DNA of 64,000 nucleotides. Origin: Phytophthora colocasiae. Its lineage: Eukaryota; Oomycota; Peronosporomycetes; Peronosporales; Peronosporaceae. The notes under the pieces are model-generated. The model was given only the letters and a program-made list of their open reading frames with translations. It ran no database searches and had not been told where the DNA came from. The stretch spans positions 1-64,000 of the forward strand of contig JAGKQI010000039.1 of NCBI GenBank assembly GCA_018806915.1. The letters run 5' to 3'. The translations under genes were made by a program, and so were the position numbers. Positions 1,634 through 41,544 of this stretch are shown piece after piece. Numbering within the stretch: position 1 is the first letter of the stretch; each line of letters begins with the position of its first letter.

Positions 1634-1877
1634 CCCTTATTCTCCCGTATTCTGTATTCTACAGAATAGGGAAATATGAGAGTGCATAGTATCTCGACAA
1701 GTTTCCCATCGGAGCCAACCCCCTGCATCTAATCTTTTGTATTGTTTGGGGTTCGGGAAAATTCGCATAGAAAAGACTGTGAGGGGAAGCTATGCACCAG
1801 ATAATTCCAAGTATAAAAGTTGAACGGTATAGAAATGAGTGGGAGGTAGTGTCCGTCGAGCACTCCCCCTCTTACAG

Positions 1878-4834
1878 ATGAACGAGTTCGACGGCCCCAC
1901 GAAGCGGTTCCGGAAGCTGTGGTCGAAGCTTACAGCAGCAGGGATGGAAGGCGCGAAAACCTTCAGGCTCTGAGTGGACGACCAGCACATACCTCAGACC
2001 AGGAGTGTCAGGGCGGCTAACAGCCCTGCTTAGAGGCACGGACTTCTTCGTTGGTGAGTACCATGCGTTGAAAATGAGTTTGGCGACGTCTGATGGAGTC
2101 GTTATGTGTGCCCAGGTACCGAGGAGCTTACTGAGTGATGCACCGAAGAGCTGGAATAGTCGATGATGAGGGTCCAGTGCAACTTATTGCAGCAGAGTTC
2201 AAGCACATTAAGTTGTGTACGCATGCCGTGACGGTGGCATCAGAACGGACCGCTACTCCAGCTGTTTCAGCGCAAGCCAAGTCCGTGCGTGTGCTGTTCC
2301 GGAGGATACAGAACGTTGCCAAGCCGTGTGCGAGCTGTTCCGGAGGAATACAGAATTGCCAAAGCCGTAAGTACGCGAGCTGTTTCGGAGTCTACAGAAT
2401 TGCCAAGCCGTGCGCCCGAGCTGTTCCGAGGCTGGGCAGAATTGCCAAGCCGTGTGCGAGCTGTTCCGGAGGCTACAGAATTAATGGACGTTGGAAGCTG
2501 GAGATTACGATGCACTGGATGCTTTTTGATGATGGCGCGTTCTTAAGATGCTCTTGCGTCGAGAAGTTCTTGTTTGGGAGCACCGCAGCTGACGACGTTA
2601 ACTTGTGTCGACCTGGATCTGTTGCGGAACACCTATCCGAGGATGAGGATGGAGACGAGGATGGTGCGCTGAGAGAGTGGTGGTGAAGAAGATGAAGGCA
2701 GCGGCAACGACAGCAGTGACTTCAGTTCCGAGGAAGACGAACCTGAGCCTACCTTCCGAGACAACGGAGGAGGAGCTCACGAGAGCTGACCAGCAGTGGG
2801 GTGGACAGCCTATGATCGCTGCTCATTTGCGGTAAGTCTGTACGCTACAACAGAATAACGGTGTGTTGCACGCTATACTAATTCTGGTATTATGTATTTT
2901 TACAATGCAGGTATGCTTCAGATGAGTGCAGCCGGAGATTACTATGACGGTCCTTGGGGTCCAACACGTTTCCAGCACCCTCGCATTTGCTGACTCACCG
3001 CTAGGTCTTTTCTTCTACTTCCTGCCGAAAAAACTTTGGATCCGCATTGCCGAGGAATCCAATCTGTATCGGAACGCGTAGCTGATACCACAGCTAGCGC
3101 AACAGCGTCGCGAATCACTGCTCAAGCAGCAAAGCTGACCCAAGGAAAGTTCTGTGCCCCATTATCAGAGTTGGAAGCAGAGTTTCAGCCGCTTTCAACC
3201 TATCAAACCCCATGAAATCGTCCATGTTGTGGCCCTTCTAATGGCCCGAGCTATCGCTCCAGTTCGGGACGGATTTATCCAAGCACTGGTCAACTTCGGA
3301 AGATGGTGCAGTTCCACGGGGAACGTTCTCGCGGGTACATGAAACGAGCTTCGCTTCAGAAGCCATCATCTCGATTTCTGCTTCACTTTAGCAACAACGA
3401 GGATGCTGACGCTGGTCCACGATTGCAAAGGCGTGGAAGATTCGGACCAGTGTTGGGCAAGCTGGTGGAGAAAACCTTCCGCCGTGGCTACCGCCTCCTG
3501 GCCGTGCTGCATCTCTTTTGATGAAGGTGATGGTGCCGGAACCGGTCGCGGTTCAATCCGATCAAGGTGTATATGAAGGATAAACCTTCAAAGTGGGAGT
3601 ACCAAGTTCTATCTGACATGCTGTGCTGAAACTGCCTATTGCGCTTCCCGGTAATGTGGTCTAACTTCTGTATTATCCGGTAAGAGGAGACATGGTGTAA
3701 ACTAACAACCGTGTGTGTATTCTGGATTGTACCGCTGAATAGCATTGAGAGATGTATTGCGGGGAAGAAGAATAAAGGCAAGAAGGAACAAATGCTCGGC
3801 CCTAAAGCTGTTGTTCGCAACATTACGAAAGTGCACTACGTGGACAGCCATATAAGCGCTCGATCATCACCGACAACTACTACTCCTCCATTCAGTTGTC
3901 TATCAAATTATACAATATGGGGCTCTACCACGTGGGGACTGTCAGGAAGTCGCGTCTCGGCTGGTGCCCAGACATCGAGTACAGCCAAAACAAAAGACCA
4001 AAGACTATTCCAAGAGGTCAGTATCGCATTGCCCACTCCAGGGGCAGTACCCGTACCTGGTTGCGCCTTCGCGTGGATGGACTCAAGCCGGTAAAACATG
4101 ATGCGCCACGGGTGCAGCTTTACACCAGACCACCGTCAACCGGAGAGAAAAAGGACGGCTCCGTCAAGCAGTCACGCCGTGTCCGCAGCTGGTCGTGGAT
4201 TACGCCGAAGCGCATGGGAGGTGTCGACGTCCACGATCAGCTGGCGCTTGCAGCGGTACTTCACCGCTGCAGAAGTGTGTGGCTTTCAAGAAATATTACA
4301 AGCAGCTATTCCTCGGGATTGTTGACATGGCCCTGGTGAACGGGTTTATCGTGCACAATATTGCCAAGAAGCGCGACGATGAGAAACCCACTCCACATGC
4401 CTGTTTCCTGCGGCGCTTACACAAAGACTTGCTAGCATTGCGAGACGTGCATTTTGACACATACCCTGTCGCGGAGGACTTAGTGGCAGGACCAGTGGGC
4501 CCGAGGCGACCACGCCTTGGTCAACACTAACAACCGCTACAAAACTGAAACGCAGTCGAAACGTCGCCAACATCTTTGCAAGGTGTGCTCGGCTCACAAA
4601 AGCGGAAAATCGTTTGAAACAAGCTTATTTTGCCCGACATGCAGCCATTACTTCGGCGGACGCGTTCCGCTATGCCCCAAGGTCCGTCGCCTAGCGGAAG
4701 GAAACACTCTCTCCTGTGCCCAGATATGGCACGACGTATGGAATGATGGCCGCAACATCCCCGCACACCTCAACGAGATCCGCTTCAGGAAGGAGAAGCG
4801 CAAGCGATCAGAGACGAACGACGAGGAGAGTTAG
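1878..4834 (+). pseudogene. piggyBac transposase, copy 1, multiply frameshifted
   Basis: Homologous along its length to the transposase of copies 2-4: start codon at 1878, 39-bp coding minisatellite at about 2277-2483, acidic segment, DDE core, and Cys-rich C-terminus ending at the TAG at 4832-4834. The first four-fifths is broken by dozens of 1-3 bp indels, so no exon before about 4.5 kb stays open for long. The last ~318 bp (4517-4834) keeps the C-terminal finger open. The lesion pattern fits unpolished sequence, so the call 'pseudogene' describes the sequence as given and may not hold for the real locus. Confidence 0.8.
2277..2483 (+). repeat. 39-bp coding minisatellite in copy 1
   Basis: About five 39-bp repeats equivalent to those in copy 2, with added bases that break the reading frame. 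Each repeat still contains ACAGAAT or a one-base variant. Confidence 0.8.
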
Positions 4835-5482
4835 GAGAACGAGGAGAGTAAAGAAAATGAAGAAATCTGAGAGAAAGAAGGGGGTGGGCAAAGAGAACTA
4901 AATGAATACACATTGATTGCATGTTGTGTTCGAATACTATTCCTACATTGGTTTTCATCGAAGCTTACACCTCGCGCCTTTAGTGTGCTTCTTACGGGTC
5001 ACGCTCATGTTGTCGCGCCACGAATGTACGTCTAGCGCGATCGAGCAACTACCAGCAATATCCAAAGCGCTTTCTGCGCAGAAATGAACGCAACGCAGAA
5101 GGAAGAATTGCCCAGTTCCTTCCGCTATCCCTCCAAGTTAGGAACTGGGCAAATTTTTCCTCTGCGTCCTACGAGCTGAACGTACAACCACTCATCTCGA
5201 CACAGCAATGCTAACAACTTCGACAGGAGTTGTCGAAGCACAGGTTTTCATCATCGTTGAAGATCACCGAGAACCAATGGGGTCGGTGTACTTCAGCGAA
5301 TGTTTTTCATAGAGGTGGCTGGATTGCATGTTTTCTGCTTCAAAATTGCGTGAGAGGACAAATGCCTGCCCTATTGCCGAAGAGGCTTGAACCCCACTAT
5401 TTTGTTGGGTTGACTGCGCATACTTTAACGAAATGAAATTCTAATTCTGTATGATACAGAATATGGGGCGGGACGCAAGGGG

Positions 5483-7140
5483 TTAAGCATGTTCTACTGA
5501 TTAGATGACGGGCCTTCCGGTCACGTCAAAGTGCGTAGTTCGGACGGTATCTCTACAGATATACGTAGCAGTTAGACACTTCAAAGTAAGAATTGGGTGT
5601 GATACAGAAGCGTTAATATGCACTTGAAATGTCACGTTACTCTGTTTTACCTTAGTTTTACTCGCGAATGACATTATGTGCGCAAGGCATACAAACTAAT
5701 ACTACAACTATTACTACTATATACCTTCTGGGTATTGCTGCTTTCTGCACGGTGGTGGTCGTCAGTACATGACGCGCTGTTATGATGTACTGCACACCGG
5801 CCTTCGGCGGCTGGGGGATTTCGAACAACAATAATATAAACATAAATATCGAACTCTCCGCAATAAATAAATACATAAATAAATAAATATATAATGTGCT
5901 CATAGAAACCAAAAAGTGTGTAATTTTAAGATCCCATAGTTTGCTATAGATTAACATCTATGACTTGGCATCATAACTGTATTTGCCGAATGACGGGCAA
6001 GGAACGCCTACGATCTAAAAGACAAGTGCCCCAAGAAGAAATGCGGCGCATGCCCACCCCGACCGCCCAAAACGACAGCAACAACCCCGCTGCTAGTACC
6101 TCGACTCGTTTGACGCCGTGCGAGCGCATGCGCAAGCTGCTATCAGTCCAGAATGCCGGTACGGTCCTATAGTACTGATGACGGCGATACGCACGGCTGC
6201 TGAAATTGTACATGTGTGCATTTTTACATCGCCGAACCCAACTATATCACATTGACATATGTTTTCTAATCTATTTATCGCCAATCAGCATCGATAAGTT
6301 GCGTGTACCACAATACAAGCAATATCGGAATAGACAACATGTGCGCGACACATAGGCGACTACCTGGCGAATATTTATCCTACTTCACGGCACATTACGA
6401 TTCTAACCAATCAACGTTTAGAAATGTTCTATCGTGAATACAAGCCATTACAACGGGAAACACGCGTAGTAGTAGGCGCACTACCTAACAATACAGGTAC
6501 ACGCTTTCCCGCGATACACACCAGGTAGATGGTCGCGACATGGCCTGATTATGAGCACAAATACAGGTAACCAACATATATGTATAGTCAGTGCGTGTGT
6601 AGAAGTCGCGAGACGTATCATTTGTGTCGACACGTCACTCACCCGACCCATAAATATGCTGCCTCGTTATTTTTTAAACGGTGGGAACTGCATGATGTTC
6701 GTACCGTACAAACATCTCTATAGCAGAGAAACAGAAACGCAAAATAGCAACAGACCAGGGTTTTGGCCTAGGGTTTTAGGTCCTCGTGGTCGTCTTTCAC
6801 GTCCTTGTAGTCGTCGTTCAGGGCCTCGTAGCTGTCGTTTAGGTCATGATAGCCGTCCTTCAGCACTTAGCAGTCCTCGTCCAGCTCCTCATGGTCGTCC
6901 GACTGGTACAGGGCTGCAGAGCCATCTTGTTTGGCAAGCGCCCATTGGTGGATACCCGAATTGTGCTTGTTTGGTACGCTTTCATTGGTAGATAGATACT
7001 CGTCAGCGATCGGCGGATGACCGGCTATTCTCGACATGCTACAGCATTAAATTTGAGGCCTCACCTCGAACGACTTGCTCTAAGTCGAGATTCGAGGTAA
7101 GGCTTCAAATTTAACACCTTCATCTGGTAGTCCTATATTG
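5483..7140 (+). repeat. Satellite unit U1
   Basis: First clean full unit (1,658 bp), counted from the TTAA after piggyBac copy 1. Order of landmarks in a unit: TTAAGCATG start; an ACT/ATT trinucleotide tract near +210; an AATA-rich tract near +380; the GC-rich word GCGCATGCGC near +640; a 6 x 21-bp minisatellite at about -357 to -232 from the next TTAA; a TTAA-bounded hairpin at about -94 to -27. This unit is A-type (ACAGATATACGTAGCAG, CACACCGG), has the short form GTCGACACG near 6628, a duplicated GATA near 6990, and one extra base near 5661. No convincing gene in it. Confidence 0.97.
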
Positions 7141-20397: not shown

Positions 20398-20442
20398 CAC
20401 CTTCATCTGGTAGTCCTATATTGTTAACCCTTATTCTCCCGT

Positions 20443-20461
20443 ATTCTGTATTCTACAGAAT
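20443..20461. repeat. Left subterminal palindrome, copy 2
   Basis: ATTCTGTATTCTACAGAAT: two inverted 8-bp half-sites separated by 3 bp, starting 15 bp inside the left end. Equivalent palindromes: copy 1 1649-1667, copy 3 29123-29141, copy 4 36176-36194 (copy 4 has one extra T just outside it). Inferred to be a transposase-binding site. Confidence 0.8.
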
Positions 20462-20600
20462 AGGAAATATGAGAGTGCATAGTATTCGACAAGCTTCCCA
20501 TCGGAGCCAACCCCCGCATCTAATCTTTTGTATTGTTTGGGGTTCGGGAAAATTCGCATAGAAAGACTGTGAGGGGAAGCTATGCACAGATAATTCCAAG

Positions 20601-20608
20601 TATAAAAG
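20601..20608 (+). promoter_or_regulatory. TATA box of transposase, copy 2
   Basis: TATAAAAG lies 62 bp upstream of the ATG at 20663, a plausible spacing for a start site near 20630. It is conserved in copy 1 (1812-1819), copy 3 (29281-29288) and copy 4 (36332-36339). Confidence 0.6.
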
Positions 20609-21046
20609 GAACGGTATAAATGAGTGGGAGGTAGTGTCCGTCGAGCACTCCCCCTCTTACAGATGAACGAGTTCGACGGCCCCACGAAGCGGTTCCGGAA
20701 GCTGTGGTCGAAGCTTACAGCAGCAGGATGGAAGGCGCGAAAACCTTCAGGTCTGAGTGACGACCACACATACCTCAGACCAGGAGTGTCAGGGCGGCTA
20801 ACAGCCCTGCTTAGAGGCACGGACTTCTTCGTTGGTGAGTACCATGCGTTGAAAATGAGTTTGCGACGTCTGATGAGTCGTTATGTGTGCCCAGGTACCG
20901 AGGAGCTTACTGAGTATGCCCGAAGAGCTGGAATAGTCGATGATGAGGGTCCAGTACTTATTGCAGCAAGTTCAAGTACACCAAGTTGTGTGCATGCCGT
21001 GACGGTGGCATCAGAACGGACCGCTACTCCAGCTGTTTCAGCGCAG

Positions 21047-21241
21047 CCAAGTCGTGCGTGTGCTGTTCCGGAGGATACAGAATTGCCAAGCCGTGTGCGA
21101 GCTGTTCCGGAGGATACAGAATTGCCAAGCCGTGTGCGAGCTGTTTCGGAGTCTACAGAATTGCCAAGCCGTGCGCGAGCTGTTCCGGAGGCTACAGAAT
21201 TGCCAAGCCGTGTGCGAGCTGTTCCGGAGGCTACAGAATTA
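21047..21241 (+). repeat. 39-bp coding minisatellite, copy 2
   Basis: Five tandem 39-bp repeats encoding 13-residue units such as PSRVRAVPEDTEL. Because 39 is divisible by 3, and by chance no stop occurs in any forward frame, all three frames stay open. Each repeat contains TACAGAAT, at 21076, 21115, 21154, 21193 and 21232. Confidence 0.93.
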
Positions 21242-21575
21242 ATGGACGTTGAAGCTGGAGATTACGATGCACTGGATGCTTTTGATGATGGCGCGTTCTT
21301 AGATGCTATGCGTCGAGAAGTTCTGTTTGGGAGCACCGCAGCTGACGACGTTAACTTGTGTCGACCTGGATCTGTTGCGGAACACCTATCCGAGGATGAG
21401 GATGGAGACGAGGATGGTGCGCTGAGGAGTGGTGGTGAAGATGAAGGCAGCGGCAACGACAGCAGTGACTTCAGTTCCGAGGAAGACGAACCTGAGCCTA
21501 CCTTCGAGACAACGGAGGAGGAGCTACGAGAGCTGACCAGCAGTGGGTGGACAGCCTATGACGCTGCTCATTGCG

Positions 21576-21646
21576 GTAAGTCTGTACGCTACAGAATACG
21601 GTGTTGCACGCTATACTAATTCTGTATTATGTATTTTACAATGCAG
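21576..21646 (+). other. Intron 1 of transposase, copy 2
   Basis: 71 bp, GTAAGT...GCAG. Removing it joins exon 1 codon base 1 (phase 1) to GT of exon 2 and continues directly into MLQMSAAGDYYDGPW. It contains TACAGAAT at 21590-21597 and ATTCTGTA at 21619-21626, in inverted orientation. It shares the 12-mer CTAATTCTGTAT with the right end of the element. Equivalents: copy 3 30253-30323, copy 4 37303-37373. Confidence 0.85.
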
Positions 21647-22352
21647 GTATGCTTCAGATGAGTGCAGCCGGAGATTACTATGACGGTCCTTGGGGTCCAA
21701 CACGTTCAGCACTCGCATTTGCTGACTCACCGCTAGGTCTTTTCTTCTACTTCCTGCCGAAAAAACTTTGGATCCGCATTGCCGAGGAATCCAATCTGTA
21801 TCGAACGCAGCTGATACCACAGCTAGCGCAACAGCGTCGCGAATCACTGCTCAAGCAGCAAGCCAAGGACCCAAGAAAGTCTGTGCCCCCATTATCAGAG
21901 TTGGAAGCAGAGTTTCGCCGCTTTCAACCTATCAAACCCCATGAAATCGTCCATGTTGTGGCCCTTCTAATGGCCCGAGCTATCGCTCCAGTTCGGGACG
22001 GTTTATCCAAGCACTGGTCAACTTCGGAAGATGGTGCAGTTCCACGGGGAACGTTCTCGCGGTACATGAAACGAGCTCGCTTCGAAGCCATCACTCGATT
22101 TCTTCACTTTAGCAACAACGAGGATGCTGACGCTGTCCACGACAAGGCGTGGAAGATTCGACCAGTGTTGCAAGCTGTGGAGAAAACCTTCCGCCGTGGC
22201 TACCGCCTCGGCCGCTGCATCTCTTTTGATGAAGGTATGGTGCCGAACCGGTCGCGGTTCAATCCGATCAAGGTGTATATGAAGGATAAACCTTCAAAGT
22301 GGGGTACCAAGTTCTATCTGACATGCTGTGCTGAAACTGCCTATTGCGCTCG

Positions 22353-22438
22353 GTAATGTGGTCTATTCTGTATTATCCGTAAGAGGAGACATGGTGTAAA
22401 CTAACAACCGTGTGTGTATTCTGGATTGTACTGAATAG
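22353..22438 (+). other. Intron 2 of transposase, copy 2
   Basis: 86 bp, GTAATG...ATAG, inferred because the conserved core runs from YCAR straight to IEVYCGKK when it is removed (phase 2). It contains ATTCTGTA at 22365-22372 and shares ATTCTGTATTAT with intron 1. Equivalents: copy 3 31030-31115, copy 4 38081-38166. Confidence 0.8.
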
Positions 22439-23765
22439 CATTGAGGTGTATTGCGGGAAGAAGAATAAAGGCAAGAAGGAACAAAATGTCGGCCCTAAAG
22501 CTGTTGTTCGCAACATTACGAGCACTACGTGGACAGCCATATAAGCGCCTGATCATCACCGACAACTACTACTCCTCCATTCAGTTGTCTATCAAATTAT
22601 ACAATATGGGGCTCTACCACGTGGGGACTGTCAGGAAGTCGCGTCTCGGCTGGTGCCCAGACATCGAGTACAGCCAAAACAAAAGACCAAAGACTATTCC
22701 AAGAGGTCAGTATCGCATTGCCCACTCCAGGCAGTACCCGTACCTGGTTGCGCTCGCGTGGATGGACTCCAAGCCGGTAAACATGATCGCCACGGGTGCA
22801 GCACACACCAGACCACCGTCAACCGGAGAGAAAAGGACGGCTCCGTCACAGTCACGCCGTGTCCGCAGCTGGTCGTGGATTACGCCGAAGGCATGGGAGG
22901 TGTCGACGTCCACGATCAGCTGCGCTTGCAGCGGTACTCACTGCAGAAGTGTGTGGCTTTCAAGAAATATTACAAGCAGCTATTCCTCGGGATTGTTGAC
23001 ATGGCCCTGGTGAACGGGTTTATCGTGCACAATATTGCCAAGAAGCGCGACGATGAGAAACCCACTCCACATGCCTGTTTCCTGCGGCGCTTACACAAAG
23101 ACTTGCTAGCATTGCGAGACGTGCATTTTGACACATACCCTGTCGCGGAGGACTTAGTGGCAGGACCAGTGGCCCGAGGCGACCACGCCTTGGTCAACAC
23201 TAACAACCGCTACAAAACTGAAACGCAGTCGAAACGTCGCCAACATCTTTGCAAGGTGTGCTCGGCTCACAAAAGTGGAAAATCGTTTGAAACAAGCTAT
23301 TTTTGCCCGACATGCAGCCATTACTTCGGCGGACGCGTTCCGCTATGCCCCAAGGTCCGTCGCCTAGCGGAAGGAAACACTCTCTCCTGTGCCCAGATAT
23401 GGCACGACGTATGGAATGATGGCCGCAACATCCCCGCACACCTCAACGAGATCCGCTTCAGGAAGGAGAAGCGCAAGCGATCAGAGACGAACGACGAGGA
23501 GAGTTAGGAGAACGAGGAGAGTAAAGAAAATGAAGAAATCTGAGAGAAAGAAGGGGGTGGGCAAAGAGAACTAAATGAATACACATTGATTGCATGTTGT
23601 GTTCGAATACTATTCCTACATTGGTTTTCATCGAAGCTTACACCTCGCGCCTTTAGTGTGCTTCTTACGGGTCACGCTCATGTTGTCGCGCCACGAATGT
23701 ACGTCTAGCGCGATCGAGCAACTACCAGCACATCCAAAGCGCTTTCTGCGCAGAAATGAACGCAA

Positions 23766-23838
23766 CGCAGAAGGAAGAATTGCCCAGTTCCTTCCGCTAT
23801 CCCTCCAAGTTAGGAACTGGGCAAATTTTTCCTCTGCG
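23766..23838. repeat. 27-bp inverted repeat in 3' region, copy 2
   Basis: Arms 23766-23792 and 23812-23838, with perfect pairing of the inner 11 bp (GCCCAGTTCCT / AGGAACTGGGC) and of the outer CGCAGA/TCTGCG, and mismatches between. It lies 260-330 bp after the stop codon. Equivalent positions: copy 3 32449-32521, copy 4 39497-39569. It could act in 3'-end formation or as a subterminal transposition site; unknown. Confidence 0.7.
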
Positions 23839-23889
23839 TCCTACGAGCTGAACGTACAACCACTCATCTCGACACAGCAATGCTAACAA

Positions 23890-23910
23890 CTTCGACAGGA
23901 GTTGTCGAAG
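23890..23910. repeat. Small hairpin in 3' region, copy 2
   Basis: CTTCGACA, loop GGAGT, TGTCGAAG: a perfect 8-bp stem about 245 bp inside the right end, conserved in all copies. Confidence 0.6.
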
Positions 23911-24117
23911 CACAGGTTTTCATCATCGTTGAAGATCACCGAGAACCAATGGGGTCGGTGTACTTCAGCGAATGTTTTTCATAGAGGTGGCTGGATTGCA
24001 TGTTTTCTGCTTCAAAATTGCGTGGAGAGGACAAATGCCTGCCCTATTGCCGAAGAGGGCTTGAACCCCACTATTTTGTTGGGTTGACTGCGCATACTTT
24101 AACGAAATGAAATTCTA

Positions 24118-24136
24118 ATTCTGCATGATACAGAAT
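24118..24136. repeat. Right subterminal palindrome, copy 2
   Basis: ATTCTGCATGATACAGAAT. In copies 1, 3 and 4 (5444-5462, 32801-32819, 39849-39867) the left half-site is intact (ATTCTGTA). Copy 2 has a T-to-C change in it. Confidence 0.8.
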
Positions 24137-24156
24137 ATGGGGCGGGACGCAAGGGG

Positions 24157-25812
24157 TTAAGCATGTTCTACTGATTAGATGACGGGCCTTCCGGTCACGT
24201 CAAAGTGCGTAGTTCGGACGGTATCTCTACAGATATACGTAGCAGTTAGACACTTCAAAGTAAGAATTGGGTGTGATACAGAAGCGTTAATATGCACTTG
24301 AAATGTCACGTTACTCTGTTTTACCTTAGTTTTACCGCGAATGACATTATGTGCGCAAGGCATACAAACTACTACTACAACTATTACTACTATATACCTT
24401 CTGGGTATTGCTGCTTTCTGCACGGTGGTGGTCGTCAGTACATGACGCGCTGTTATGATGTACTGCACACCGGCCTTCGGCGGCTGGGGGATTTCGAACA
24501 ACAATAATATAAACATAAATATCGAACTCTCCGCAATAAATAAATACATAAATAAATAAATATATAATGTGCTCATAGAAACCAAAAAGTGTGTAATTTT
24601 AAGATCCCATAGTTTGCTATAGATTAACATCTATGACTTGGCATCATAACTGTATTTGCCGAATGACGGGCAAGGAACGCCTACGATCTAAAAGACAAGT
24701 GCCCCAAGAAGAAATGCGGCGCATGCCCACCCCGACCGCCCAAAACGACAGCAACAACCCCGCTGCTAGTACCTCGACTCGTTTGACGCCGTGCGAGCGC
24801 ATGCGCAAGCTGCTATCAGTCCAGAATGCCGGTACGGTCCTATAGTACTGATGACGGCGATACGCACGGCTGCTGAAATTGTACATGTGTGCATTTTTAC
24901 ATCGCCGAACCCAACTATATCACATTGACATATGTTTTCTAATCTATTTATCGCCAATCAGCATCGATAAGTTGCGTGTACCACAATACAAGCAATATCG
25001 GAATAGACAACATGTGCGCGACACATAGGCGACTACCTGGCGAATATTTATCCTACTTCACGGCACATTACGATTCTAACCAATCAACGTTTAGAAATGT
25101 TCTATCGTGAATACAAGCCATTACAACGGGAAACACGCGTAGTAGTAGGCGCACTACCTAACAATACAGGTACACACGCTTTCCCGCGATACACACCAGG
25201 TAGATGGTCGCGACATGGCCTGATTATGAGCACAAATACAGGTAACCAACATATATGTATAGTCAGTGCGTGTGTAGAAGTCGCGAGACGTATCATTTGT
25301 GTCGTACACGTCACTCACCCGACCCATAAATATGCTGCCTCGTTATTTTTTAAACGGTGGGAACTGCATGATGTTCGTACCGTACAAACATCTCTATAGC
25401 AGAGAAACAGAAACGCAAAATAGCAACAGATCAGGGTTTTGGCCTAGGGTTTTAGGTCCTCGTGGTCGTCTTTCACGTCCTTGTAGTCGTCGTTCAGGGC
25501 CTCGTAGCTGTCGTTTAGGTCATGATAGCCGTCCTTCAGCACTTAGCAGTCCTCGTCCAGCTCCTCATGGTCGTCCGACTGGTACAGGGCTGCAGAGCCA
25601 TCTTGTTTGGCAAGCGCCCATTGGTGGATACCCGAATTGTGCTTGTTTGGTACGCTTTCATTGGTAGATACTCGTCAGCGATCGGCGGATGACCGGCTAT
25701 TCTCGACATGTTACAGCATTAATTTGAGGCCTCACCTCGAACGACTTGCTCTAAGTCGAGATTCGAGGTAAGGCTTCAAATTTAACACCTTTCATCTGGT
25801 AGTCCTATATTG
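24157..25812 (+). repeat. Satellite unit U10 (A-type, first after copy 2)
   Basis: 1,656 bp. Marker set: TTCCGG, ACAGATATACGTAGCAG, CACACCGG, ACACACGC, GTCGTACACG, hairpin arm AGGCTTC. The same combination is found in U13 and U15, the first units after copies 3 and 4. It shares AGATCAGGG near 25428 with U15 but not U13. Confidence 0.97.
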
Positions 25813-29103: not shown

Positions 29104-29341
29104 TTAACCCTTATTCTCCCGTATTCTGTATTCTACAGAATAGGAAATATGAGAGTGCATAGTATTCGACAAGCTTCCCATCGGAGCCAACCCCCGCATC
29201 TAATCTTTTGTATTGTTTGGGGTTCGGGAAAATTCGCATAGAAAGACTGTGAGGGGAAGCTATGCACAGATAATTCCAAGTATAAAAGGAACGGTATAAA
29301 TGAGTGGGAGGTAGTGTCCGTCGAGCACTCCTCTCTTACAG

Positions 29342-32187
29342 ATGAACGAGTTCGACGGCCCCACGAAGCGGTTCCGGAAGCTGTGGTCGAAGCTTACAGC
29401 AGCAGGATGGAAGGCGCGAAAACCTTCAGGTCTGAGTGACGACCACACATACCTCAGACCAGGAGTGTCAGGGCGGCTAACAGCCCTGCTTAGAGGCACG
29501 GACTTCTTCGTTGGTGAGTACCATGCGTTGAAAATGAGTTTGCGACGTCTGATGAGTCGTTATGTGTGCCCAGGTACCGAGGAGCTTACTGAGTATGCCC
29601 GAAGAGCTGGAATAGTCGATGATGAGGGTCCAGTACTTATTGCAGCAAGTTCAAGTACACCGTTGTGTGCATGCCGTGACGGTGGCATCAGAACGGACCG
29701 CTACTCCAGCTGTTTCAGCGCAGCCAAGTCGTGCGTGTGCTGTTCCGGAGGATACAGAATTGCCAAGCCGTGTGCGAGCTGTTCCGGAGGATACAGAATT
29801 GCCAAGCCGTGTGCGAGCTGTTTCGGAGTCTACAGAATTGCCAAGCCGTGCGCGAGCTGTTCCGGAGGCTACAGAATTGCCAAGCCGTGTGCGAGCTGTT
29901 CCGGAGGCTACAGAATTAATGGACGTTGAAGCTGGAGATTACGATGCACTGGATGCTTTTGATGATGGCGCGTTCTTAGATGCTATGCGTCGAGAAGTTC
30001 TGTTTGGGAGCACCGCAGCTGACGACGTTAACTTGTGTCGACCTGGATCTGTTGCGGAACACCTATCCGAGGATGAGGATGGAGACGAGGATGGTGCGCT
30101 GAGGAGTGGTGGTGAAGATGAAGGCAGCGGCAACGACAGCAGTGACTTCAGTTCCGAGGAAGACGAACCTGAGCCTACCTTCGAGACAACGGAGGAGGAG
30201 CTACGAGAGCTGACCAGCAGTGGGTGGACAGCCTATGACGCTGCTCATTGCGGTAAGTCTGTACGCTACAGAATACGGTGTTGCACGCTATACTAATTCT
30301 GTATTATGTATTTTACAATGCAGGTATAAGCTTCAGATGAGTGCAGCCGGAGATTACTATGACGGTCCTTGGGGTCCAACACGTTCAGCACTCGCATTTG
30401 CTGACTCACCGCTAGGTCTTTCTTCTACTTCCTGCCGAAAAACTTTGGATCCGCATTGCCGAGGAATCCAATCTGTATCGAACGCAGCTGATACCACAGC
30501 TAGCGCAACAGCGTCGCGAATCACTGCTCAAGCAGCAAGCCAAGGACCCAAGAAAGTCTGTGCCCCCATTATCAGAGTTGGATGCAGAGTTTCGCCGCTT
30601 TCAACCTATCAAACCCCATGAAATCGTCCATGTTGTGGCCCTTCTAATGGCCCGAGCTATCGCTCCAGTTCGGGACGGTTTATCCAAGCACTGGTCAACT
30701 TCGGAAGATGGTGCAGTTCCACGGGGAACGTTCTCGCGGTACATGAAACGAGCTCGCTTCGAAGCCATCACTCGATTTCTTCACTTTAGCAACAACGAGG
30801 ATGCTGACGCTGTCCACGACAAGGCGTGGAAGATTCGACCAGTGTTGCAAGCTGTGGAGAAAACCTTCCGCCGTGGCTACCGCCTCGGCCGCTGCATCTC
30901 TTTTGATGAAGGTATGGTGCCGAACCGGTCGCGGTTCAATCCGATCAAGGTGTATATGAAGGATAAACCTTCAAAGTGGGGTACCAAGTTCTATCTGACA
31001 TGCTGTGCTGAAACTGCCTATTGCGCTCGGTAATGTGGTCTATTCTGTATTATCCGTAAGAGGAGACATGGTGTAAACTAACAACCGTGTGTGTATTCTG
31101 GATTGTACTGAATAGCATTGAGGTGTATTGCGGGAAGAAGAATAAAGGCAAGAAGGAACAAAATGTCGGCCCTAAAGCTGTTGTTCGCAACATTACGAAA
31201 GCACTACGTGGACAGCCATATAAGCGCCTGATCATCACCGACAACTACTACTCCTCCATTCAGTTGTCTATCAAATTATACAATATGGGGCTCTACCACG
31301 TGGGGACTGTCAGGAAGTCGCGTCTCGGCTGGTGCCCAGACATCGAGTACAGCCAAAACAAAAGACCAAAGACTATTCCAAGAGGTCAGTATCGCATTGC
31401 CCACTCCAGGCAGTACCCGTACCTGGTTGCGCTCGCGTGGATGGACTCCAAGCCGGTAAACATGATCGCCACGGGGTGCAGCACACACCAGACCACCGTC
31501 AACCGGAGAGAAAAGGACGGCTCCGTCACAGTCACGCCGTGTCCGCAGCTGGTCGTGGATTACGCCGAAGGCATGGGAGGTGTCGACGTCCACGATCAGC
31601 TGCGCTTGCAGCGGTACTCACTGCAGAAGTGTGTGGCTTTCAAGAAATATTACAAGCAGCTATTCCTCGGGATTGTTGACATGGCCCTGGTGAACGGGTT
31701 TATCGTGCACAATATTGCCAAGAAGCGCGACGATGAGAAACCCACTCCACATGCCTGTTTCCTGCGGCGCTTACACAAAGACTTGCTAGCATTGCGAGAC
31801 GTGCATTTTGACACATACCCTGTCGCGGAGGACTTAGTGGCAGGACCAGTGGCCCGAGGCGACCACGCCTTGGTCAACACTAACAACCGCTACAAAACTG
31901 AAACGCAGTCGAAACGTCGCCAACATCTTTGCAAGGTGTGCTCGGCTCACAAAAGTGGAAAATCGTTTGAAACAAGCTATTTTTGCCCGACATGCAGCCA
32001 TTACTTCGGCGGACGCGTTCCGCTATGCCCCAAGGTCCGTCGCCTAGCGGAAGGAAACACTCTCTCCTGTGCCCAGATATGGCACGACGTATGGAATGAT
32101 GGCCGCAACATCCCCGCACACCTCAACGAGATCCGCTTCAGGAAGGAGAAGCGCAAGCGATCAGAGACGAACGACGAGGAGAGTTAG
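29342..32187 (+). pseudogene. piggyBac transposase, copy 3 (exon 3 intact, exons 1-2 frameshifted)
   Basis: Exons 29342-30252, 30324-31029, 31116-32187. Exon 1 lacks 2 bp near 29661. Exon 2 has 2 extra bp near 30328, creating an early stop, and single-base losses near 30420 and 30438. Exon 3 is fully open and carries the second catalytic Asp (IITDNYYSS, D582), the GGVDVHDQ motif with D697 and D700, and the C-terminal finger CKVC...CPTC...C (C812, C815, C830, C833, C844), with further Cys and His downstream. Numbering is for the composite 896-residue product, much longer than the usual ~600 for the family because of the N-terminal additions. The spacing of the Asp residues (83 and 115) is close to that of classical piggyBac (78 and 101). 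Confidence 0.9.
29724..29918 (+). repeat. 39-bp coding minisatellite, copy 3
   Basis: Five 39-bp repeats, the same number as copy 2 and nearly identical. Because of the upstream 2-bp loss, a ribosome starting at 29342 would read them in a different but still open frame. Confidence 0.93.
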
Positions 32188-32839
32188 GAGAACGAGGAGA
32201 GTAAAGAAAATGAAGAAATCTGAGAGAAAGAAGGGGGTGGGCAAAGAGAACTAAATGAATACACATTGATTGCATGTTGTGTTCGAATACTATTCCTACA
32301 TTGGTTTTCATCGAAGCTTACACCTCGCGCCTTTAGTGTGCTTCTTACGGGTCACGCTTTGGCGTTGTCGCGCCACGAATGTACGTCTAGCGCGATCGAG
32401 CAACTACCAGCAATATCCAAAGCGCTTTCTGCGCAGAAATGAACGCAACGCAGAAGGAAGAATTGCCCAGTTCCTTCCGCTATCCCTCCAAGTTAGGAAC
32501 TGGGCAAATTTTTCCTCTGCGTCCTACGAGCTGAACGTACAACCACTCATCTCGACACAGCAATGCTAACAACTTCGACAGGAGTTGTCGAAGCACAGGT
32601 TTTCATCATCGTTGAAGATCACCGAGAACCAATGGGGTCGGTGTACTTCAGCGAATGTTTTTCATAGAGGTGGCTGGATTGCATGTTTTCTGCTTCAAAA
32701 TTGCGTGGAGAGGACAAATGCCTGCCCTATTGCCGAAGAGGGCTTGAACCCCACTATTTTGTTGGGTTGACTGCGCATACTTTAACGAAATGAAATTCTA
32801 ATTCTGTATGATACAGAATATGGGGCGGGACGCAAGGGG

Positions 32840-34495
32840 TTAAGCATGTTCTACTGATTAGATGACGGGCCTTCCGGTCACGTCAAAGTGCGTAGTTCGG
32901 ACGGTATCTCTACAGATATACGTAGCAGTTAGACACTTCAAAGTAAGAATTGGGTGTGATACAGAAGCGTTAATATGCACTTGAAATGTCACGTTACTCT
33001 GTTTTACCTTAGTTTTACCGCGAATGACATTATGTGCGCAAGGCATACAAACTACTACTACAACTATTACTACTATATACCTTCTGGGTATTGCTGCTTT
33101 CTGCACGGTGGTGGTCGTCAGTACATGACGCGCTGTTATGATGTACTGCACACCGGCCTTCGGCGGCTGGGGGATTTCGAACAACAATAATATAAACATA
33201 AATATCGAACTCTCCGCAATAAATAAATACATAAATAAATAAATATATAATGTGCTCATAGAAACCAAAAAGTGTGTAATTTTAAGATCCCATAGTTTGC
33301 TATAGATTAACATCTATGACTTGGCATCATAACTGTATTTGCCGAATGACGGGCAAGGAACGCCTACGATCTAAAAGACAAGTGCCCCAAGAAGAAATGC
33401 GGCGCATGCCCACCCCGACCGCCCAAAACGACAGCAACAACCCCGCTGCTAGTACCTCGACTCGTTTGACGCCGTGCGAGCGCATGCGCAAGCTGCTATC
33501 AGTCCAGAATGCCGGTACGGTCCTATAGTACTGATGACGGCGATACGCACGGCTGCTGAAATTGTACATGTGTGCATTTTTACATCGCCGAACCCAACTA
33601 TATCACATTGACATATGTTTTCTAATCTATTTATCGCCAATCAGCATCGATAAGTTGCGTGTACCACAATACAAGCAATATCGGAATAGACAACATGTGC
33701 GCGACACATAGGCGACTACCTGGCGAATATTTATCCTACTTCACGGCACATTACGATTCTAACCAATCAACGTTTAGAAATGTTCTATCGTGAATACAAG
33801 CCATTACAACGGGAAACACGCGTAGTAGTAGGCGCACTACCTAACAATACAGGTACACACGCTTTCCCGCGATACACACCAGGTAGATGGTCGCGACATG
33901 GCCTGATTATGAGCACAAATACAGGTAACCAACATATATGTATAGTCAGTGCGTGTGTAGAAGTCGCGAGACGTATCATTTGTGTCGTACACGTCACTCA
34001 CCCGACCCATAAATATGCTGCCTCGTTATTTTTTAAACGGTGGGAACTGCATGATGTTCGTACCGTACAAACATCTCTATAGCAGAGAAACAGAAACGCA
34101 AAATAGCAACAGACCAGGGTTTTGGCCTAGGGTTTTAGGTCCTCGTGGTCGTCTTTCACGTCCTTGTAGTCGTCGTTCAGGGCCTCGTAGCTGTCGTTTA
34201 GGTCATGATAGCCGTCCTTCAGCACTTAGCAGTCCTCGTCCAGCTCCTCATGGTCGTCCGACTGGTACAGGGCTGCAGAGCCATCTTGTTTGGCAAGCGC
34301 CCATTGGTGGATACCCGAATTGTGCTTGTTTGGTACGCTTTCATTGGTAGATACTCGTCAGCGATCGGCGGATGACCGGCTATTCTCGACATGCTACAGC
34401 ATTAAATTTGAGGCCTCACCTCGAACGACTTGCTCTAAGTCGAGATTCGAGGTAAGGCTTCAAATTTAACACCTTCATCTGGTAGTCCTATATTG
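32840..34495 (+). repeat. Satellite unit U13 (A-type, first after copy 3)
   Basis: 1,656 bp. Same marker combination as U10 and U15, except for AGACCAGGG rather than AGATCAGGG near 34110. Confidence 0.97.
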
Positions 34496-36155: not shown

Positions 36156-36391
36156 TTAACCCTTATTCTCCCTGTATTCTGTATTCTACAGAATAGGAAA
36201 TATGAGAGTGCATAGTATTCGACAAGCTTCCCATCGGAGCCAACCCCGCATCTAATCTTTGTATTGTTTGGGGTTCGGGAAAATTCGCATAGAAAGACTG
36301 TGAGGGGAAGCTATGCACAGATAATTCCAAGTATAAAAGGAACGGTATAAATGAGTGGGAGGTAGTGTCCGTCGAGCACTCCCTCTTACAG

Positions 36392-39237
36392 ATGAACGAG
36401 TTCGACGGCCCCACGAAGCGGTTCCGGAAGCTGTGGTCGAAGCTTACAGCAGCAGGATGGAAGGCGCGAAAACCTTCAGGTCTGGAGTGACGACCACACA
36501 TACCTCAGACCAGGAGTGTCAGGGCGGCTAACAGCCCTGCTTAGAGGCACGGACTTCTTCGTTGGTGAGTACCATGCGTTGAAAATGAGTTTGCGACGTC
36601 TGATGAGTCGTTATGTGTGCCCAGGTACCGAGGAGCTTACTGAGTATGCCCGAAGAGCTGGAATAGTCGATGATGAGGGTCCAGTACTTATTGCAGCAAG
36701 TTCAAGTACACCAAGTTGTGTGCATGCCGTGACGGTGGCATCAGAACGGACCGCTACTCCAGCTGTTTCAGCGCAGCCAAGCCGTGCGTGTGCTGTTCCG
36801 GAGGATACAGAATTGCCAAGCCGTGTGCGAGCTGTTCCGGAGGATACAGAATTGCCAAGCCGTGTGCGAGCTGTTTCGGAGTCTACAGAATTGCCAAGCC
36901 GTGCGCGAGCTGTTCCGGAGGCTACAGAATTGCTGCCGTGTGCGAGCTGTTCCGAGGCTACAGAATTAATGGACGTTGAAGCTGGAGATTACGATGCACT
37001 GGATGCTTTTGATGATGGCGCGTTCTTAGATGCTATGCGTCGAGAAGTTCTGTTTGGGAGCACCGCAGCTGACGACGTTAACTTGTGTCGACCTGGATCT
37101 GTTGCGGAACACCTATCCGAGGATGAGGATGGAGACGAGGATGGTGCGCTGAGGAGTGGTGGTGAAGATGAAGGCAGCGGCAACGACAGCAGTGACTTCA
37201 GTTCCGAGGAAGACGAACCTGAGCCTACCTTCGAGACAACGGAGGAGGAGCTACGAGAGCTGACCAGCAGTGGGTGGACAGCCTATGACGCTGCTCATTG
37301 CGGTAAGTCTGTACGCTACAGAATACGGTGTTGCACGCTATACTAATTCTGTATTATGTATTTTACAATGCAGGTATGCTTCAGATGAGTGCAGCCGGAG
37401 ATTACTATGACGGTCCTTGGGGTCCAACACGTTCAGCACTCGCATTTGCTGACTCACCGCTAGGTCTTTTCTTCTACTTCCTGCCGAAAAAACTTTGGAT
37501 CCGCATTGCCGAGGAATCCAATCTGTATCGAACGCAGCTGATACCACAGCTAGCGCAACAGCGTCGCGAATCACTGCTCAAGCAGCAAGCCAAGGACCCA
37601 AGAAAGTCTGTGCCCCCATTATCAGAGTTGGAAGCAGAGTTTCGCCGCTTTCAACCTATCAAACCCCATGAAATCGTCCATGTTGTGGCTCCTTCTAATG
37701 GCCCGGGCAATCGCTCCACTTAGGGACGGTTTATACAAACAAAGGTCAACATCGGAAGAAGGTGCAGTTACACGGGGAACGTTCACGCGGTACATGAAAC
37801 GAGCTCGCTTCGAAGCCATCACTCGATTTCTTCACTTTAGCAACAACGAGGATGCTGACGCTGTCCACGACAAGGCGTGGAAGATTCGACCAGTGTTGCA
37901 AGCTGTGGAGAAAACCTTCCGCCGTGGCTACCGCCTCGGCCGCTGCATCTCTTTTGATGAAGGTATGGTGCCGAACCGGTCGCGGTTCAATCCGATCAAG
38001 GTGTATATGAAGGATAAACCTTCAAAGTGGGGTACCAAGTTCTATCTGACATGCTGTGCTGAAACTGCCTATTGCGCTCGGTAATGTGGTCTATTCTGTA
38101 TTATCCGTAAGAGGAGACATGGTGTAAACTAACAACCGTGTGTGTATTCTGGATTGTACTGAATAGCATTGAGGTGTATTGCGGGAAGAAGAATAAAGGC
38201 AAGAAGGAACAAAATGTCGGCCCTAAAGCTGTTGTTCGCAACATTACGAAAGCACTACGTGGACAGCCATATAAGCGCCTGATCATCACCGACAACTACT
38301 ACTCCTCCATTCAGTTGTCTATCAAATTATACAATATGGGGCTCTACCACGTGGGGACTGTCAGGAAGTCGCGTCTCGGCTGGTGCCCAGACATCGAGTA
38401 CAGCCAAAACAAAAGACCAAAGACTATTCCAAGAGGTCAGTATCGCATTGCCCACTCCAGGCAGTACCCGTACCTGGTTGCGCTCGCGTGGATGGACTCC
38501 AAGCCGGTAAACATGATCGCCACGGGGTGCAGCACACACCAGACCACCGTCAACCGGAGAGAAAGGACGGCTCCGTCACAGTCACGCCGTGTCCGCAGCT
38601 GGTCGTGGATTACGCCGAAGGCATGGGAGGTGTCGACGTCCACGATCAGCTGCGCTTGCAGCGGTACTCACTGCAGAAGTGTGTGGCTTTCAAGAAATAT
38701 TACAAGCAGCTATTCCTCGGGATTGTTGACATGGCCCTGGTGAACGGGTTTATCGTGCACAATATTGCCAAGAAGCGCGACGATGAGAAACCCACTCCAC
38801 ATGCCTGTTTCCTGCGGCGCTTACACAAAGACTTGCTAGCATTGCGAGACGTGCATTTTGACACATACCCTGTCGCGGAGGACTTAGTGGCAGGACCAGT
38901 GGCCCGAGGCGACCACGCCTTGGTCAACACTAACAACCGCTACAAAACTGAAACGCAGTCGAAACGTCGCCAACATCTTTGCAAGGTGTGCTCGGCTCAC
39001 AAAAGTGGAAAATCGTTTGAAACAAGCTATTTTTGCCCGACATGCAGCCATTACTTCGGCGGACGCGTTCCGCTATGCCCCAAGGTCCGTCGCCTAGCGG
39101 AAGGAAACACTCTCTCCTGTGCCCAGATATGGCACGACGTATGGAATGATGGCCGCAACATCCCCGCACACCTCAACGAGATCCGCTTCAGGAAGGAGAA
39201 GCGCAAGCGATCAGAGACGAACGACGAGGAGAGTTAG
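36392..39237 (+). pseudogene. piggyBac transposase, copy 4 (frameshifts in all three exons)
   Basis: Exons 36392-37302, 37374-38080, 38167-39237. Exon 1 has an extra G near 36484, putting the first ~31 codons out of frame with the rest, and loses 2 + 1 bp in the last minisatellite repeat, keeping frame. Exon 2 has an extra T near 37690 at the edge of a diverged patch. Exon 3 loses one A near 38562, which truncates before the GGVDVHDQ motif. The first two catalytic regions (SFDEG near 37950, TDNYY near 38290) are unchanged. As given it cannot make a full transposase. Confidence 0.9.
36777..36968 (+). repeat. 39-bp coding minisatellite, copy 4
   Basis: Five repeats. The last has lost 3 bp in total and reads ELLPCASCSEATEL in place of ELPSRVRAVPEATEL. 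All five TACAGAAT words remain. Confidence 0.92.
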
Positions 39238-39887
39238 GAGAACGAGGAGAGTAAAGAAAATGAAGAAATCTGAGAGAAAGAAGGGGGTGGGCAAAGAGAA
39301 CTAAATGAATACACATTGATTGCATGTTGTGTTCGAATACTATTCCTACATTGGTTTTCATCGAAGCTTACACCTCGCGCCTTTAGTGTGCTTCTTACGG
39401 GTCACGCTCATGTTGTCGCGCCACGAATGTACGTCTAGCGCGATCGAGCAACTACCAGCAATATCCAAAGCGCTTTCTGCGCAGAAATGAACGCAACGCA
39501 GAAGGAAGAATTGCCCAGTTCCTTCCGCTATCCCTCCAAGTTAGGAACTGGGCAAATTTTTCCTCTGCGTCCTACGAGCTGAACGTACAACCACTCATCT
39601 CGACACAGCAATGCTAACAACTTCGACAGGAGTTGTCGAAGCACAGGTTTTCATCATCGTTGAAGATCACCGAGAACCAATGGGGTCGGTGTACTTCAGC
39701 GAATGTTTTTCATAGAGGTGGCTGGATTGCATGTTTTCTGCTTCAAAATTGCGTGGAGAGGACAAATGCCTGCCCTATTGCCGAAGAGGGCTTGAACCCC
39801 ACTATTTTGTTGGGTTGACTGCGCATACTTTAACGAAATGAAATTCTAATTCTGTATGATACAGAATATGGGGCGGGACGCAAGGGG

Positions 39888-41544
39888 TTAAGCATGTTCT
39901 ACTGATTAGATGACGGGCCTTCCGGTCACGTCAAAGTGCGTAGTTCGGACGGTATCTCTACAGATATACGTAGCAGTTAGACACTTCAAAGTAAGAATTG
40001 GGTGTGATACAGAAGCGTTAATATGCACTTGAAATGTCACGTTACTCTGTTTTACCTTAGTTTTACCGCGAATGACATTATGTGCGCAAGGCATACAAAC
40101 TACTACTACAACTATTACTACTATATACCTTCTGGGTATTGCTGCTTTCTGCACGGTGGTGGTCGTCAGTACATGACGCGCTGTTATGATGTACTGCACA
40201 CCGGCCTTCGGCGGCTGGGGGATTTCGAACAACAATAATATAAACATAAATATCGAACTCTCCGCAATAAATAAATACATAAATAAATAAATATATAATG
40301 TGCTCATAGAAACCAAAAAGTGTGTAATTTTAAGATCCCATAGTTTGCTATAGATTAACATCTATGACTTGGCATCATAACTGTATTTGCCGAATGACGG
40401 GCAAGGAACGCCTACGATCTAAAAGACAAGTGCCCCAAGAAGAAATGCGGCGCATGCCCACCCCGACCGCCCAAAACGACAGCAACAACCCCGCTGCTAG
40501 TACCTCGACTCGTTTGACGCCGTGCGAGCGCATGCGCAAGCTGCTATCAGTCCAGAATGCCGGTACGGTCCTATAGTACTGATGACGGCGATACGCACGG
40601 CTGCTGAAATTGTACATGTGTGCATTTTTTACATCGCCGAACCCAACTATATCACATTGACATATGTTTTCTAATCTATTTATCGCCAATCAGCATCGAT
40701 AAGTTGCGTGTACCACAATACAAGCAATATCGGAATAGACAACATGTGCGCGACACATAGGCGACTACCTGGCGAATATTTATCCTACTTCACGGCACAT
40801 TACGATTCTAACCAATCAACGTTTAGAAATGTTCTATCGTGAATACAAGCCATTACAACGGGAAACACGCGTAGTAGTAGGCGCACTACCTAACAATACA
40901 GGTACACACGCTTTCCCGCGATACACACCAGGTAGATGGTCGCGACATGGCCTGATTATGAGCACAAATACAGGTAACCAACATATATGTATAGTCAGTG
41001 CGTGTGTAGAAGTCGCGAGACGTATCATTTGTGTCGTACACGTCACTCACCCGACCCATAAATATGCTGCCTCGTTATTTTTTAAACGGTGGGAACTGCA
41101 TGATGTTCGTACCGTACAAACATCTCTATAGCAGAGAAACAGAAACGCAAAATAGCAACAGATCAGGGTTTTGGCCTAGGGTTTTAGGTCCTCGTGGTCG
41201 TCTTTCACGTCCTTGTAGTCGTCGTTCAGGGCCTCGTAGCTGTCGTTTAGGTCATGATAGCCGTCCTTCAGCACTTAGCAGTCCTCGTCCAGCTCCTCAT
41301 GGTCGTCCGACTGGTACAGGGCTGCAGAGCCATCTTGTTTGGCAAGCGCCCATTGGTGGATACCCGAATTGTGCTTGTTTGGTACGCTTTCATTGGTAGA
41401 TACTCGTCAGCGATCGGCGGATGACCGGCTATTCTCGACATGCTACAGCATTAAATTTGAGGCCTCACCTCGAACGACTTGCTCTAAGTCGAGATTCGAG
41501 GTAAGGCTTCAAATTTAACACCTTCATCTGGTAGTCCTATATTG
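39888..41544 (+). repeat. Satellite unit U15 (A-type, first after copy 4)
   Basis: 1,657 bp. Marker set identical to U10, including AGATCAGGG, which makes module 4 closest to module 2. Confidence 0.97.

Follow-up and report, generated by a model that had tools for sequence, protein, structure and literature searches.

End-type words recur in the introns of piggyBac-like transposase genes of Phytophthora colocasiae and follow the word class of the element ends

The piggyBac element of Trichoplusia ni (T. ni) combines a TTAA target, a DDE transposase with a C-terminal cysteine-rich finger, and 19-bp palindromes close to the two ends at unequal distances, a combination shared by the piggyBac-like element described here, four copies of which lie in a 64,000-nt stretch of Phytophthora colocasiae DNA (GenBank assembly GCA_018806915.1, contig JAGKQI010000039.1, positions 1 to 64,000; hereafter, the window). 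The transposase gene of T. ni piggyBac is not known to contain introns. In the P. colocasiae element, unlike that of T. ni, introns of the transposase gene contain further copies of the terminal site, as does a coding linker in some families. Palindromic ends are in themselves an ordinary piggyBac feature; to our knowledge, what is new is that end-type sites in the introns track the end word and stand in register with the splice sites. These introns are enriched in the end word, match it class by class, hold it at fixed distances from splice sites, and neighbor a control intron in which no such excess occurs. A dimer of the C-terminal finger (cysteine-rich domain, CRD) of T. ni piggyBac is described as binding a 19-bp palindromic repeat at bp 17-33 of the left end (PMC7351741), and the end palindrome of our element matches this CRD site in size and position. 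Judged from sequence, the internal words are most likely predicted transposase-binding sites held in the introns by selection.

Precedents by function may be seen in piggyBat of Myotis lucifugus and in the P element of Drosophila. A 1995 paper is said, going by its title, to treat autoregulation of the P-element repressor with reduced splicing of the third intron. Retention of a P-element intron is reported to limit the transposase, with a shorter product that binds element DNA and represses (PMC7776569); the silencer described there lies in exonic RNA and is recognized by host proteins, whereas the sites considered here are copies of the end site located in introns. For piggyBat, an extra internal transposase-binding site is reported to limit activity (PMC11707139), and extra copies of the terminal site are likewise found inside the present element, as a matter of sequence. 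The piggyBat site, as described in that source, is subterminal (left end, bp 99-120), in contrast to the introns and splice sites occupied here. Autoregulation of Hsmar1 is attributed to binding-site competition that limits transposition (PMC3687335), a competition which that account describes for the ends, whereas the sites at issue in our element are internal. A search of titles and abstract openings, with the subscription literature mostly outside its scope, found no report of transposase-site arrays in transposase introns.

The original prediction held that one 8-bp word, TACAGAAT, marks both ends, both introns, and every repeat of a coding minisatellite in copy 2 of the element (20424..24160, plus strand, TTAA to TTAA), and all of the coordinates it listed for this word were recovered (20443-, 20454+, 21076+, 21115+, 21154+, 21193+, 21232+, 21590+, 21619-, 22365-, and 24129+). 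The left-end 19-bp palindrome, ATTCTGTATTCTACAGAAT, spans 20443..20461 and begins at bp 16 of the element; the right-end 19-bp palindrome spans 24118..24136, begins at bp 21 off the right end, and has one arm mutated in copy 2. This mutated arm is the twelfth site, which reads ATTCTGCA at 24118 and, as had been claimed, is intact in copies 1, 3, and 4 (5444, 32801, and 39849). The proposed count against shuffled controls bore the excess out: the window contains 42 exact occurrences of TACAGAAT, all of them confined to the four copies, compared with a mean of 2.61 and a maximum of 10 in 100 dinucleotide shuffles, and copy 2 without 70 bp at each end retains eight compared with 0.13 in shuffles. 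A chance origin of the words was rejected by the shuffles. Copies 3 (29104..32843) and 4 (36156..39891), both on the plus strand, carry intron and end sites as in copy 2. Copy 1 (1630..5486, plus strand) has no exact TACAGAAT in its introns because small insertions break the sites; the claim that the word occupies both introns therefore stands for copies 2 to 4 and fails for copy 1.

The sites of copy 2 are distributed over a gene whose exon 1 (20663..21575, plus strand) is open and includes a probable early intron, designated intron 0 (20835..20894, plus strand, GTGAGT..CAG, 60 bp), which served as a negative control; the borders of intron 1 (21576..21646, plus strand) and intron 2 (22353..22438, plus strand) were inferred from the reading frame and GT-AG. 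A palindrome of the form AGTCTGTA-CGC-TACAGAAT (21579..21597), matching at 15/16 arm positions, begins at position +4 of intron 1, and the site at 21590 is one of its arms. Further into this intron, a half-site on the minus strand (21619..21626) overlaps a branch-point-like CTAAT (CTAATTCTGTAT). Intron 2 contains the half-site ATTCTGTA (22365..22372, minus strand) and a degenerate palindrome, ATTCTGGA-TTG-TACTGAAT (22418..22436, 14/16), which adjoins the 3' splice site and ends two bases before the end of the intron.

For comparison, 16 families from one genome were tabulated, namely, A (represented by copy 2), L052, L056, L058, L059, and L062-L072. The loci inspected comprised 20 newly fetched from 123 exon-3 matches (L055-L074), together with L051-L054 and the window; L052 and L054 were also among those matches. 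Set aside were L051 and L053 (internally deleted, with L053 kept for the codon count), L054, L055, and L060 (other copies of A), L057 (family of L056), L061 (family of L059), L073 (left end not captured), and L074 (family of L070, with an intron 2 that agrees). Starts of exon 1 outside A and many ends of exon 3 were estimated from BLAST starts, and one outer boundary each of L056, L070, and L071 was guessed, which affects compartment lengths and not introns; the right part of L056 contains a second exon-1-like stretch. Internal counts made for L059 and L061 in the manner of copy 2 include the left-end palindrome, which was found later.

The end words of these families form four classes: TAC, defined by the end word TACAGAAT (seven families); CCGG (L063, L065, and L072); GCAG (L066-L068); and TCG (L069-L071). 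In the tree, GCAG and TCG form separate branches, and CCGG is placed within the TAC families where resolution is poor. Where palindromes were located in TAC-type loci, the left start is bp 16-17 and the right start is bp 21, except for bp 19 in L053; the left/right starts are 16/21 in A, 17/21 in L052, and 16/21 in L062. The left palindromes of L058 and L064 are degenerate and were read by eye, and for L056, L057, L070, and L071 only one of the two ends was located. The TCG-class right-end palindrome lies at bp 43 (L069 and L071), not bp 21, a position nearer to the T. ni arrangement. The left ends of the GCAG class (L066-L068) show, at about bp 47-49, a second palindrome of the AAACTGAATATATTCAGTTT type with a different word. 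Of the 10 loci fetched from the other three classes, none contained an exact TACAGAAT. Loci L021-L050 were examined by word count only, and three of these 30 contained it exactly, including L033, which is the L052 element.

Because the original prediction had proposed examining relatives with different ends, the nine families of the other classes are informative, and their introns carry their own end word above the shuffled level, mostly as half-sites with one mismatch. When intron 2 of each family was excised and compared with all terminal palindromes, own-class half-sites (at least 7/8) averaged 3.7 in TAC, 2.2 in CCGG, 1.7 in GCAG, and 2.1 in TCG, against 0.43, 0.36, 0.15, and 0.10, respectively, for words of the other classes. 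Permutation of the class labels reached the observed own-versus-other difference in 0/20,000 trials, a result whose certainty is overstated, to the detriment of our interpretation, in that related families are treated as independent. Since the word classes follow the tree, only about three independent changes of the end word can be counted, each of them matched in the introns. Compared with dinucleotide shuffles, exact TAC half-sites numbered 12 versus 0.16 in intron 1 and 16 versus 0.26 in intron 2, and intron 2 of the other classes contained, with one mismatch allowed, 8 versus 0.58 (CCGG), 7 versus 0.79 (GCAG), and 6 versus 0.83 (TCG), each level being reached in 0/500 shuffles. Additional introns in L067 (two) and L068 (one) conformed to this trend, with 12 own-class words versus 2.72 in shuffles (0/500). 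In the control intron 0 of the TAC class, terminal words showed no excess (2 versus 1.99). Base-composition bias is an unlikely explanation because words of other classes are rarer in the same introns, and a general oomycete splice signal is likewise unlikely, given a word that changes with the class and an intron 0 without enrichment.

The distribution of exact half-sites along the TAC elements bears on the main rival explanation, according to which the internal sites act on transposition, recruiting or titrating transposase as an enhancer or as an inhibitory extra site, and reside in introns because the sequence there is free to change. Introns 1 and 2 hold 12 sites in 477 bp and 16 in 806 bp (28 in 1,283 bp), about 136 times the density of exons 2 and 3 together (2 in 12,466 bp), and the non-coding flanks are nearly empty, with one site in 1,456 bp on the 5' side and none in 3,647 bp on the 3' side (likewise none in 3,021 bp when L056, with its uncertain right end, is excluded). 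Expressed per kb, introns 1 and 2 reach 25 and 20, compared with 1.7 for exon 1, 0.2 for exon 2, 0.13 for exon 3, 0.7 for the 5' part, and 0 for the 3' part; with one mismatch allowed, the contrast becomes smaller and persists (37 to 40/kb in the introns versus 3.3 to 6.9/kb in the flanks and exon 3). Near-empty flanks and a control intron without excess both speak against an effect on transposition alone, which would also leave the splice-site register unexplained. The limiting site of piggyBat makes such an effect conceivable, as do 11 exact sites in 6,593 bp of TAC exon 1, five of which belong to the minisatellite of A, and five exact GCAG sites in the 3' non-coding part of that class, which show that the intron rule is not absolute there. 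The same explanation gains, as does that of sites selected within introns, from short non-autonomous elements of the B family, in which intron 1 is amplified as a tandem array with an 83-bp unit (L051, positions 969-1248; also L001, L002, L005, L006, L007, L016, L017, and L019). Units of this kind were sought in L001-L020 only, and 8/20 of these loci contained two to four matching units; the second word-bearing minisatellite, that of the short B-family copies, is this array of intron 1. On balance, we regard a role confined to transposition as rather unlikely, although it is the strongest competitor to sites selected within introns.

Besides the GCAG sites in the 3' flank and the relatedness of the permuted families, several observations weigh against selection for end-type sites in the introns. 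Foreign words are rarer and not absent: with one mismatch, TAC intron 2 includes 7 GCAG-type words versus 30 of its own, and TCG intron 2 includes 3 GCAG-type words versus 6 of its own. CCGG is the weakest class, with no exact terminal half-site in intron 2 and with intron palindromes that reach at best 11-12 of 16 positions, none of them at the 3' splice site, and exact own-class matches in intron 2 of GCAG and TCG are few (one each). The D element L053 is without an exact internal word, though it lacks introns 1 and 2 altogether, and a single 12/16 stretch occurs in the control intron 0 of L059. Finally, a block acting at the DNA level would not require any register with splice sites.

Several of the intron sites do stand in such a register. 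In intron 1, TACAGAAT occurs at +15 in 7/7 TAC families as part of an 8-3-8 palindrome that starts at +4 in all seven (13 to 15 of 16 arm positions), and the word is identical throughout these families (100%), compared with 34% for the next 15 columns. In intron 2, a palindrome lies across the acceptor, TACAG|AGT, and ends three bases past it in 5/7 TAC families (14-15 of 16); the other two are A, with its 14/16 palindrome two bases before the intron end, and L056, with a half-site only. Two of the three TCG families have a 12-13/16 palindrome ending zero or four bases before the end of intron 2, and all three GCAG families have a half-site located roughly 10 bases upstream of that point (read by eye), with one mismatch in two of the families. 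The overlap of such sites with the 5' splice region, the branch-point-like CTAAT, and the TACAG acceptors raises the question of whether the words act in RNA instead, as hairpins over splice sites or as splicing signals for host factors. Folding relative to shuffles gave a z of about -3 for intron 2 of A, L052, and L062, -3.4 for intron 1 of L059, and -4.2 for intron 2 of L065, whereas intron 2 of the GCAG and TCG classes showed no excess folding (z -1.04 to 0.20) despite carrying words. Hairpins are thus weak as a general explanation because only some introns fold in excess and two classes show none; several of the intron sites are, moreover, single arms, and a host splicing signal would not be expected to track the terminal word of each class. 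An action of the words in RNA is accordingly improbable.

Descent offers another way to account for end-like words in introns, in that the introns could derive from transposon ends, in the manner of introners, with the words as relics. Introners arising from DNA transposons are known (PMC9860276) and, as described there, link DNA transposon ends to introns, as is the case here. Only TAC families were seen to have intron 1; none was found in CCGG or in the GCAG and TCG families with a readable exon 1-2 junction (that of L071 was not readable). An end-type palindrome lies near the start of intron 1. The present introns, unlike introners, sit within the transposase gene itself and have no TTAA or terminal repeats at their borders: inspection by eye of the borders of introns 1 and 2 revealed neither TTAA nor tip sequence, and the likeness to the ends is confined to the 8-3-8 site. 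Intron 2 is common to the four classes yet carries the word of its own class, so that ongoing selection or repeated conversion would be needed in any case. An origin of the words as relics therefore appears very improbable, even more so than an action in RNA.

We consider it reasonably probable that the words would be transposase-recognition sites kept by selection in introns 1 and 2, with self-limiting expression as their function. TACAGAAT would be one arm of the element's own recognition palindrome, an 8-3-8 bp site that the C-terminal cysteine-rich finger most likely reads as a dimer, and we infer that this finger binds the end and intron sites alike. Selection would maintain copies of the site in introns 1 and 2, several of them in a fixed splice-site register, and lineages with another end word would carry that word in their introns. 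As transposase accumulates, it may occupy the introns of its own gene and thereby lower the output of full-length transposase, through a block to transcription or a disturbance of splicing, such that expression limits itself. Of the two components, the function has less support than the sites, and self-limited transposase expression is best viewed as the leading, unproven candidate. A more specific version, which we advance only tentatively, is that the end code has been reused as a splice-control code: transposase bound at the intron-1 5' splice region and at the intron-2 3' splice site might regulate maturation of its own transcript, and the code might be rewritten at the ends and in the introns together when finger specificity changes.

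The coding 39-bp minisatellite of copy 2 (21045..21239, plus strand) comprises five VPEDTELPSR-like units, each with TACAGAAT, and counts as a single tandem-duplication event, so that about four independent internal events can be distinguished (the minisatellite, intron 1 twice, and intron 2). For this feature alone, the possibility that the word is incidental, a by-product of the conserved linker peptide (I/V)P(E/D)DTE(L/Q), is evenly balanced with its alternative. VPEDTEL-type linkers recur in L052, L053, L062, and L064 and, encoded by different bases, in CCGG families, and the presence of related linkers in TAC and CCGG families despite their different ends indicates a conserved protein motif. 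In L053, L062, and L064, the 42-bp repeats have TACAGAAC or TACAGAGC. In the B family (L056 and L051), the DTEQ motif is written with ACG and the word is consequently absent, an observation that led us to raise the weight of the protein-motif explanation to its present level. Codon usage points the other way: the threonine codon is ACA in 21/22 TAC repeats (first pattern, without L056) or 25/27 TE pairs in the coding frame (with L056), against a background of 36/151 in exon 3 of TAC families, and in 0/6 repeats or 0/8 TE and TV pairs of CCGG families, against a background of 15/65, with the caveat that related families may have inherited their codons. Moreover, the L058 peptide is altered to ILYPTEQ, while its DNA reads ATTCTGTATCCTACAGAAC, a 15/16 palindrome. 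Tandem Repeats Finder detected no array in L072 at the default score, nor in L067 at a score of 40. The minisatellite may hold a further set of transposase sites, spelled out where a disordered linker leaves the sequence free to vary, a reading that is suggestive and not established. The claim that it carries the site in frame fares accordingly: the threonine codon mostly follows the word, and the motif is shared with the CCGG class and with the B family, in which the word is absent. The broader proposal that ends and internal words form one recognition site consequently holds up for the introns and only in part for the minisatellite.

The assignment of the element to piggyBac rests on several features. 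TTAA flanks both ends of copies 1-4, as expected for target duplication in the piggyBac superfamily, and the window contains 24 empty copies of the target site, each with a single TTAA. The DDE_Tnp_1_7 domain (PF13843) was detected in the exon 2 piece (E = 1.3e-22) and exon 3 (E = 7.5e-24) of copy 3, the copy tested, and no Pfam family was found in exon 1. Exon 3 matches the piggyBat and piggyBac transposases in PDB by sequence, and Foldseek with a model of exon 3 only also matched piggyBat and piggyBac, with a predicted template modeling (pTM) score of 0.45 and a poor whole-chain fit. The C-terminal cysteine-rich finger (approximately 23244..23405, plus strand), the presumed binder of the palindrome, was placed by alignment and by the piggyBat/piggyBac matches; its Cys/His pattern is present in 15/16 aligned families, the open frame of L056 stopping within the finger, and residues beside it vary by word class. 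Homologous proteins were considered as the 120 listed of 199: those with species names came from oomycetes, mainly Phytophthora with some Pythium, Lagenidium, and Nothophytophthora, and 20/120 fit the pattern of the intron-2 junction, 14 of which read straight across it. The genome (92.5 Mb, 105 contigs) contains 68 exact copies of the left palindrome and at least 123 stretches related to exon 3. Loci L026-L050 include piggyBac-type genes whose open frames are very long, reaching 1,167 aa. A search for relatives in viral contigs yielded 11 pattern matches, none of which was confirmed, and an Rfam scan of the window returned nothing at the gathering threshold.

The window itself is a tandem array of a unit of about 1,656 bp, with 26 to 29 copies according to the listed repeat families. 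All four copies of the element sit at the same TTAA of this unit, and 24 units are empty at that position; on the simplest reading, one insertion was spread through array turnover. Between copy 1, near the contig start, and copies 2-4 there are 81 to 87 small indel events and 60 to 73 substitutions, and the indels of copy 1 are nearly all extra bases (124 to 128 gained versus 4 to 9). Either an error in the assembly or a mutational bias toward insertions could account for this divergence.

Families with matched ends, introns, and fingers, such as those of P. colocasiae, bear on how eukaryotic DNA transposons limit themselves and would make an intron route to self-limitation directly testable. 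The class-specific residues beside the finger and the four end words may together also serve as natural material for working out the code by which piggyBac-type fingers recognize DNA.

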